Source: Haliotis asinina
Taxonomy: Eukaryota > Mollusca > Gastropoda > Lepetellida > Haliotidae
DNA length: 64,000 bases
Reading direction: 5' to 3'
NCBI RefSeq assembly: GCF_037392515.1
Contig: NC_090288.1
Span: 59,815,673 to 59,879,672, forward strand
In this document: positions 5,101-8,100 of the stretch, one piece after another
Layout: every line of letters starts with the position of its first letter
Position numbering within the stretch: the first letter of the stretch is position 1
Translations under genes and position numbers: made by a program
Notes under the pieces: model-generated
The model's database searches: none
The model's input: the letters and a program-made list of their open reading frames with translations, nothing else
Told to the model about the DNA's origin: nothing

Positions 5101-8100
5101 ACACAAGCTTAGAGAGACGACTTCACACAGTCACACGATCGTATTATGGCGTCCGTAGTAACAAATACTACCTCTTTCGGCGTTTGTAGGCGTAACAAAT
5201 GACAACGACTGTAACGACGATGAGCACCACAGCGAGGAATACACTGACTGTGATGATTGCTATACCAGCAGTTGTCTCCTCCCAAGGGGTCACCACCAGG
5301 TGGTACGAGGTTACAGCCTCGATATGGAAATATTTCAGCGCGCCTGCTGCAAAGCAGACACACATACAAATAGACGATTATTGAAAACATTCATGTCTTA
5401 TAGATCCTGTTGAAAATACATCTGGGCATTCACTATTCAGTGTCTCAACATTCACCGGATCAGGTGTTCAAAGTTTTAATGAAACATTATAGGCAATAGT
5501 ATAGTTCTACGGTCTGTTTGCCACACAATCAACGGGTAGCCCTCGTTGTTAATGTGCTAGGATATAAACATTAATATGATGATTTGTTAAACAATGTTTC
5601 TATGATAATCCGTCATACATCAAATTTGAAATGTTGCTAAGGTTTAATAAACTTTTGCAGTGTACTTCTTTGATACTATGTTGTCAGTTGTTCTCCTGGA
5701 TGTGAACACCCTCCAAGCCATACCTACTTGTCAGTTGTCCTACTGGATCTGAACATCCTTCAAGCCATACCTACTTGTCAGTTGTCCTACTGGATGTGAA
5801 CATCCTTCAAGCCATACCTACTTGTCAGTTGTCCTACTGGATGTGAACATCCTTCAAGCCATACCTACTTGTCAGTTGTCCTACTGGATGTGAACATCCT
5901 TCAAGCCATACCTCCTTGTCAGTTGTCCTACTAGATGTGAACACCCTCCAAGCCACACCTACCTGTCAGTTGTCCTAATGGATGTGAACACCCTCCAAGC
6001 CATACCTCCTTGTCAGTTGTCCTACTGGATGTGAACACCCTCCAAGTCACACCGACCTGTCAGTTGTCCTACTGGATGTGAACACCCTCCAAGCCACACC
6101 TACCTGTCAGTTGTCCTCCTGAATCTGAACACCCTCCAAGCCACACCTCCTTGTCAGTTGTCCTACTGGATGTGAACACCCTCCAAGCCATACATCCTTG
6201 TCAGTTGTCCTACTGGATGTGAACACCCTCCAAGCCATACCTCCTTGTCAGTTGTCCTACTGGATGTGAACACCCTCCAAGCCATACCTCCTTGTCAGTT
6301 GTCCTACTGGATGTGAACACCCTCCAAGCCACACCTACCTGTCAGTTGTCCTACTGGATGTGAACACCCTCCAAGCCATACCTCCTTGTCAGTTGTCCTA
6401 CTGGATGTGAACACCCTCCAAGCCACACCTACCTGTCAGTTGTCCTAATGGATGTGAACACCCTCCAAGCCACACCTCCTTGTCAGTTGTCCTACTGGAT
6501 GTGAACACCCTCCAAGCCACACCTCCTTGTCAGTTGTCCTACTGGATGTGAACACCCTCCAAGCCATACCTCCTTGTCAGTTGTCCTACTGGATGTGAAC
6601 ACCCTCCAAGCCACACCTACCTGTCAGTTGTCCTCCTGAATCTGAACACCCTCCAAGCCACACCTCCTTGTCAGGTGTCCTAATGGATGTGAACACCCTC
6701 CAAGCCATACCTCCTTGTCAGTTGTCCTACTGGATGTGAACACCCTCCAAGCCACACCTACTTGTCAGTTGTCCTCCTGAATCTGAACACCCTCCAAGCC
6801 ATACCTCCTTGTCAGTTGTCCTACTGGATGTGAACACCCTCCAAGCCACACCTACTTGTCAGTTGTCCTACTGGATGTGAACACCCTCCAAGCCACACCT
6901 CCTTGTCAGTTGTCCTACTGGATGTGAACACCCTCCAAGCCACACCTACCTGTCAGTTGTCCTACTGGATGTGAACACCCTCCAAGCCATACCTACCTGT
7001 CAGTTGTCCTACTGGATGTGAACACCCTCCAAGCCATACCTCCTTGTCAGTTGTCCTACTGGATGTGAACACCCTCCAAGCCATACCTACCTGTCAGTTG
7101 TCCTACTGGATCTGAACACCCTCCAAGCCATACCTCCTTGTCAGTTGTCCTACTGGATCTGAACACCCTCCAAGCCATACCTCCTTGTCAGTTGTCCTAC
7201 TGGATGTGAACACCCTCCAAGCCACACCTACTTGTCAGTTGTCCTACTGAATCTGAACACCCTCCAAGCCACACCGACCTGTCAGTTGTCCTCCTGAATC
7301 TGAACACCCTCCAAGCCACACCTCCTTGTCAGTTGTCCTACTGAAGCTGAACACCCTAGAAGCCACACCGACTTGTCAGTTGTCCTACTGGATGTGAACA
7401 CCCTTCAAGCCATACCTCCTTGTCAGTTGTCCTACTGGATGTGAACACCCTCCAAGCCATACCTCCTTGTCAGTTAGCCTACTGGATCTGACCCTCTTTC
7501 GAGAAACACGTACCTGTTTCTTTTCTTACTGGAACTGAACACACTCCACAATTCATCAACTTGATTTTTCGATCCTTTAGTCTTACCTTTGCCCCGTCAG
7601 TTGTCCAAATGGATTTGAACAGCTTTCTAGTCAAATCTACTTTCAGTTACCCTACATGACCTAAACCATCTTCATACTACATCCGTGTCAGTTGTCCTTC
7701 GGTAACAGCCTTCAAGTCACACTTACTTGTTAGTTGTCCGACTGGCGTTCCACTGGGGTCTGAGGCAAGGGATCGCGACAGCTGGCCTGATGTTAGAAAT
7801 GTCTTGGATTTGTTGATGTTGTCCATGTCGTCGGTGGTGTTGTCAGCGACAGCATACACGTGAACGTCAACGGGACTGGATTGGAAAGGAAGCTTTAGAG
7901 TGGATTGTTTTCATAACAGTGGATTGTAGGAGCTGGGCGAATTTATGCAAAGTTGTATTTTAAAAGAAATATTGGCTGATGATGTTACTGGGTACAACGC
8001 AGGAGAACTTCCTCGATGAAGTTTGCATAATTAGTTGGGCTCATAATCTGTAGCTGCGGGATATATTTTTATGACGACCAAGGTATTCTTAAGAAATTTC

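Follow-up and report, generated by a model that had tools for sequence, protein, structure and literature searches.

Most of the tenth intron of a cadherin-like gene of the abalone Haliotis asinina is occupied by a 47-bp minisatellite, the unit of which resembles the end of the preceding exon, its 5′ splice site and the beginning of the intron itself. We think it probable, at roughly 0.83, that this is a minisatellite of the 'mirage' type: a duplication spanning the donor would have been followed by multiplication and homogenisation of the copies lying downstream, the array being most likely spliced out with the intron. This kind of structure is already known, from amphioxus mirages and from human IFI6. 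What is new is its recurrence across H. asinina genes. Taken alone, the cadherin array is one more case; it is the recurrence that should interest the specialist. How the spliceosome chooses one donor among near-identical downstream copies is a basic question, and many genes carrying their own donor in tandem make a natural series for exploring rules of proximity and strength, as well as the mirage model of intron gain.

An exon–intron junction in tandem

The gene lies on the minus strand of the window (the whole stretch of 64,000 nucleotides that was analysed), with Pfam cadherin domains in the open reading frames (ORFs) upstream of intron 10. The numbering of exons 10 and 11 and of intron 10 is that of an earlier note on this DNA. 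The features, in window positions, are these:

7727..7875, minus strand: exon 10, 149 nt, based on its ORF and splice sites and on matches of its 52-aa peptide at five paralogous loci
7706..7745, minus strand: junction copy, a 40-mer over the exon 10/intron 10 boundary, 32/40 identical to the array consensus
7725..7726, minus strand: authentic 5′ splice site, CAA/GTAAGT, its GT starting at 7726; 9.26 of a maximum of 12.60 bits (scored, as are all donors below, with human donor frequencies and not a mollusc model); U1 duplex of -7.9 kcal/mol
5347..7726, minus strand: intron 10, 2,380 bp
7677..7679, minus strand: in-frame TAG past the exon 10 donor, upstream of every strong decoy donor
7492..7703, minus strand: degenerate copies bridging junction and array, with two donor-like sites at 7586 and 7513
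5681..7491, minus strand: 47-bp minisatellite, 38.5 copies (TRF), sense consensus CCAGTAGGACAACTGACAAGGAGGTATGGCTTGGAGGGTGTTCACAT
5172..5346, minus strand: exon 11, 175 nt, with a transmembrane segment; related exons lie downstream of exon 10 in 5/5 paralogs

Exon 11 also has a tandem acceptor (NAGNAG) at 5347/5344, where either choice keeps the frame, with TG replaced by S.

The array delimited by TRF has 93% matches and takes up most of the intron. The earlier note had described, at 5684-7740, a 47-bp minisatellite resembling the exon 10 donor junction. Both array and resemblance are real, the former found by TRF and the latter scoring far above shuffled sequence, and the coordinates are correct within a few bases. 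The likeness itself had been put at about 90%, a figure that has to come down to the 80-85% measured. The junction 40-mer, which occurs once only on the window's sense strand, agrees with the consensus of the 38 units at 80% of its positions, 17/19 of the exonic ones and 15/21 of the intronic ones; the tandem unit thus spans the exon–intron boundary, as in a mirage. Each unit comprises 19 exonic and about 22 intronic nucleotides, the exonic part corresponding to the last 19 nt of exon 10 (7745-7727). Set against single units, the junction agrees at 34/40 positions at best and 30/40 at worst (mean 32.3).

Local alignment of the junction 80-mer with the doubled consensus gives a score of 59. Comparison with shuffled sequence, a check which the earlier note had itself suggested, leaves the likeness standing: the maximum over 20,000 dinucleotide shuffles of the 80-mer is 31, and 0/20,000 reach 59. 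The other 80-mers of the window (n = 3,082) score 24 at best, and no ungapped 40-mer from beyond the region agrees at more than 24/40 positions, whichever of the 47 phases is tried. Partial units, said in the earlier note to connect the two, are indeed present as the degenerate copies, which run gaplessly between junction and array. A search of the assembly (1.14 Gb) with a 301-bp piece of the array yielded, among the matches listed, the cadherin locus only, with at least nine overlapping matches. The supposition that the array is a dispersed satellite, or its match to the junction fortuitous, for which nothing was found in favour, is accordingly of near-negligible probability: the shuffles rule out chance similarity, and the sole locus among the matches listed rules out a dispersed satellite at the sensitivity used.

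The window holds other long minisatellites, at 20191-21484 and 27271-31842, with periods of 34-113 and 290; the 290-bp units and the 45-bp ones (27271) also hold donor-like sites. Besides these, we noted on the plus strand a Tc-type transposase-like ORF (15941-16774; PF01498, below the curated cut-off) and an ORF with a bZIP domain (54982-56184; PF07716). Elsewhere in the assembly, a single contig gives six matches to Egg_lysin, a protein family of abalones and their kin, in keeping with the abalone origin of the DNA.

The order of events

Which came first, the exon end or the array? The five paralogous loci matched by the exon 10 peptide lie on the same contig, at 47-51% identity. In 5/5 of them the exon stops at the same point (GTP..L), with an intron and then a related transmembrane exon behind it. 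These homologous introns measure about 204, 213, 625, 1,223 and 3,019 bp; TRF reports no minisatellite within the five, all it detects being an (ATC)n run in each of the two shortest, and at the paralog loci the unit scores at most 29 in local alignment, against 59 for the junction. Because the paralogs have the exon end and the intron without the array, the exon end is the older feature and the array a novelty of the cadherin gene, and the proposal of the earlier note that the functional donor is the founding copy appears the simplest account of the sequences. A newly gained intron, made by tandem duplication, is ruled out, as the same intron stands at the same place in 5/5 paralogs.

The reverse order, in which the array was born inside the intron and the exon end was overwritten later, for example by gene conversion, is very unlikely, if not strictly excluded. 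The exon codons that match the unit (after GTP) are poorly conserved among the paralogs, Leu excepted, and the last codons of the exon, VGQLT, are unlike those of the five paralogs, which speaks for such an overwriting. However, exon length and intron position have been kept, as have the Leu and the Pro in GTP, which reads GSP in one gene; and over the 19 exonic nt, exon and unit have two fixed differences (GTC/GTA, CTA/CTG), both synonymous and both in a third codon position. Furthermore, at another locus considered below (L059), 44 nt of the unit belong to a cysteinyl-tRNA synthetase exon which aligns with bacterial enzymes, and there exon-first is clear. The immediately adjacent paralog (L035:1247-1801, contig C9) has an array of its own, with a 39-bp unit and 12.6 copies, directly after the donor of its own transmembrane exon; the likeness between its junction and the first degenerate units is weak (37/5,000 shuffles as good).

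Identity matrices of the units tell how the array has been turning over. The inner units have a mean pairwise identity of 92.7%, with no fall-off over ten lags, while over 47 nt identity is 62% for the edge copy next to the array (7532) and 75% for the junction copy: as in mirages, the interior is homogenised and the boundary of the cluster has diverged. Units farther from the junction resemble it slightly more (Spearman 0.32, P = 0.05), so that likeness does not simply fall with distance from the founder.

The scenario that we favour, that of a mirage-type minisatellite founded by the exon 10 donor, would then run as follows. A short stretch running from the last nucleotides of exon 10 across its 5′ splice site into intron 10 appears to have once been duplicated in tandem. 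To judge from the pattern of identities, the copies on the intron side would have multiplied, and ordinary minisatellite turnover would have homogenised them; coding constraint would have kept the exon copy as it was, and the copies nearest to that one would have decayed. The birth of the array was probably blind to gene structure, the donor being included as the duplication happened to cover it. Finally, the spliceosome most likely still cuts at the donor nearest the exon, so that the array leaves with the intron.

Donor-like sites and a stop codon in the intron

The earlier note had counted about 38 decoy donors in the array. Donor-like GTs are indeed repeated, but the GT homologous to that of the authentic donor is kept in 18/38 units only, 20/38 reading GG instead; it is a second GT, four bases downstream, that is present in 38/38. 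With both forms the units hold splice signals, again as mirages do. The commonest form of the second GT, GAG/GTATGG (13 units), scores 7.38 bits. Eight units read CAG/GTAGGT, with 10.04 bits and a U1 duplex of -11.5 kcal/mol, on both counts above the authentic donor; among the intermediate copies, that at 7586 (AAG/GTAAGA) reaches 10.82 bits, above the authentic donor as well, and that at 7513 (CAG/GTACGT) lies a shade below it, at 9.26 bits. In all, the 1.8-kb array holds 51 donor-like sites scoring 6 bits or more, or 28 per kb, versus 2.6-2.7 per kb elsewhere in the window.

What might the use of such sites entail? Past the true donor, reading gives VGQLTSKCDLKAVTEGQLTRM and then the TAG at 7679-7677, before all the strong decoys. 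The stop rules out in-frame, repeat-length protein isoforms, which the earlier note had envisaged, and the frame that stays open after use of a downstream unit in IFI6-type arrays is absent here. As the stop lies before them, use of the strong decoys would either end the protein before the membrane segment or send the messenger to nonsense decay. Titration of the U1 snRNP, another suggestion of the earlier note, is unlikely, a few dozen sites in one pre-mRNA having to be set against at least 42 U1 matches in the assembly. Few nuclear RNAs are as abundant as U1, and the assembly has a tandem cluster of its genes (contig C13:43860295-43885421), mostly 635 bp apart.

One might nevertheless think of a working decoy array, as in IFI6, in which array donors compete with the authentic one, copy number tuning the proportion, and in which their use, or retention of the intron, yields a target of nonsense decay or a cadherin cut before the membrane segment. 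We hold this to be unlikely, although the eight units and the copy at 7586 that outscore the true donor mean that purely passive removal is, as far as predicted strength can tell, not guaranteed. The U1 genes of the assembly have a canonical 5′ end, the stop precedes the transmembrane exon, and IFI6 is reported, in the account given by PMC4526556, to splice from two of its downstream repeat units. Yet the homologous GT has been lost in more than half of the units, and the donor strength of the unit consensus is unremarkable, 12% of shuffled units being as good (13 arrays compared, most of the others having no donor-like site in their unit). In amphioxus, moreover, RT-PCR suggested, according to PMC3087553, that mirages leave regular splicing undisturbed. 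Some other selected function of the intron, with its U1 sites blocking premature polyadenylation or its G-rich stretches enhancing splicing, seems highly improbable. The density of donor-like sites and the presence of two ATTAAA signals further along intron 10 (5648 and 5480) would suit it; that density, however, follows from repeating one unit, the paralog introns do without an array, and there is no AATAAA in intron 10. We expect the array to have little effect on splicing.

Recurrence in the genome and comparison with known systems

The assembly was searched for three tandem donor words, CAGGTAAG, CAGGTAAGT and AAGGTAAGT, and arrays were taken among the matches listed: all 5 for the first, all 12 for the second and 10/15 for the third, these last being chosen before their flanks were seen. 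Of these arrays, chosen, it must be kept in mind, for repeated donor words, 9/27 begin at the own donor of an apparent exon, seven of them well supported, four through a protein family or a solved structure (L048, L059, L070 and L072) and three through long ORFs. When the exonic 70 nt were shuffled, an equally good match came up 0-3 times in 1,000 trials, whichever of the nine was taken:

L048: protein-family support from a CBM_14 match within the ORF
L059: cysteinyl-tRNA synthetase, 44 exonic nt per unit
L070: SLC6-type symporter, from a sodium:neurotransmitter symporter match (E = 7e-6) that narrowly misses the curated cut-off
L072: MRP1-type ABC transporter (E = 1.5e-10), with only 5 exonic nt in the unit
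L063: long ORF, no Pfam match
L068: long ORF, no Pfam match
L076: long ORF, weak EGF hits
L055: weaker case, DUF4487 (E = 0.019)
L077: weaker case, ORF only

Nor did Pfam return a match for L077 or for the L072 exon. The L077 exon presumably resembles SMARCAL1, a likeness for which comparison with solved structures found no support. Among the remaining 18/27, four are plausible from short ORFs (L051, L054, L057 and L064) and 14 have no clear exon at their start. L051 has a plausible exon there and L049 none, while for L057 the exonic part adds nothing, 195/1,000 shuffled exons being as good. Some large arrays among L049-L064 repeat a perfect donor dozens of times with no exon visible at their start, such as L052, whose 48 bp unit is present in at least 85 copies in the stretch taken.

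Are donors, then, hot spots for the birth of arrays? Tandem (×3) matches number 283 for CAGGTAAGT versus 56 for the reversed word, and 111 for AAGGTAAGT versus 248 reversed; on contigs 1-4 there are 11 donor arrays versus 6 reversed-word arrays, a difference which is not significant (P = 0.27). Single words differ too (12,478 versus 10,565 reversed, and 13,060 versus 22,128 reversed, respectively), so that the reversed word makes a poor background, and a 15% share of true donors built on it was dropped. The share of such words expected to be true donors is 25-48%, under assumed donor frequencies and 150,000-250,000 introns, and it fits the 8/22 arrays that begin at an apparent donor. The idea that donors found arrays more often than other sites do finds no support in these counts; the simplest reading is that arrays arise without regard to gene structure and that splicing tolerates the copies. 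Going further, one could imagine a genome-wide class of tens or more genes with own-donor arrays, the copy number of which, in some of them and perhaps in the cadherin gene, switches between a membrane-bound product and a truncated or decayed one; this we regard as unlikely.

The closest parallel to the cadherin array is found in amphioxus, where 'mirages' are described as tandem repeats over exon–intron boundaries in Adh3 and the globins BflGb6 and BflGb9 (PMC3087553, citing Canestro et al. 2002). According to the same source their units are of 10-72 bp in Adh3, of 150-160 bp (3 or 6 units) in BflGb6 and of 157 bp in BflGb9, and the units at the boundary escape homogenisation. Boundary-spanning tandem duplication, splice signals, homogenised interior and diverged boundary are common to both; the cadherin array differs in being molluscan, with a 47-bp unit and 38 copies. 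Our literature search, in which 'mirage' was not among the terms, returned no mollusc mirage, and we claim no absence from print. In human IFI6 (6-16/G1P3), a minisatellite supplies several splice donors (Turri et al. 1995, via PMC4526556). By that description its repeat units, placed like the cadherin ones at the 3′ end of an exon, serve as alternative donors; splicing from downstream units, with isoforms encoded by them, is reported there, whereas the cadherin array is preceded by an in-frame stop. In the Rogers model, as presented in PMC4974935 together with a repeated 24-bp AGGT segment of fission yeast, introns are gained by tandem duplication of AGGT segments. There too local tandem duplication multiplies splice signals, but the cadherin intron is not new. 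In abalone itself, intron 3 of a TSSK1-like gene holds a 27-bp minisatellite whose copy number varies between individuals (PMC6905558), a likeness in kind and place, although the description cited mentions no link of that repeat with a splice junction. On the evidence of its sequence, the cadherin array is a well-polarised example of a kind already described; it is unusually long, and arrays of this sort recur more widely in the genome.
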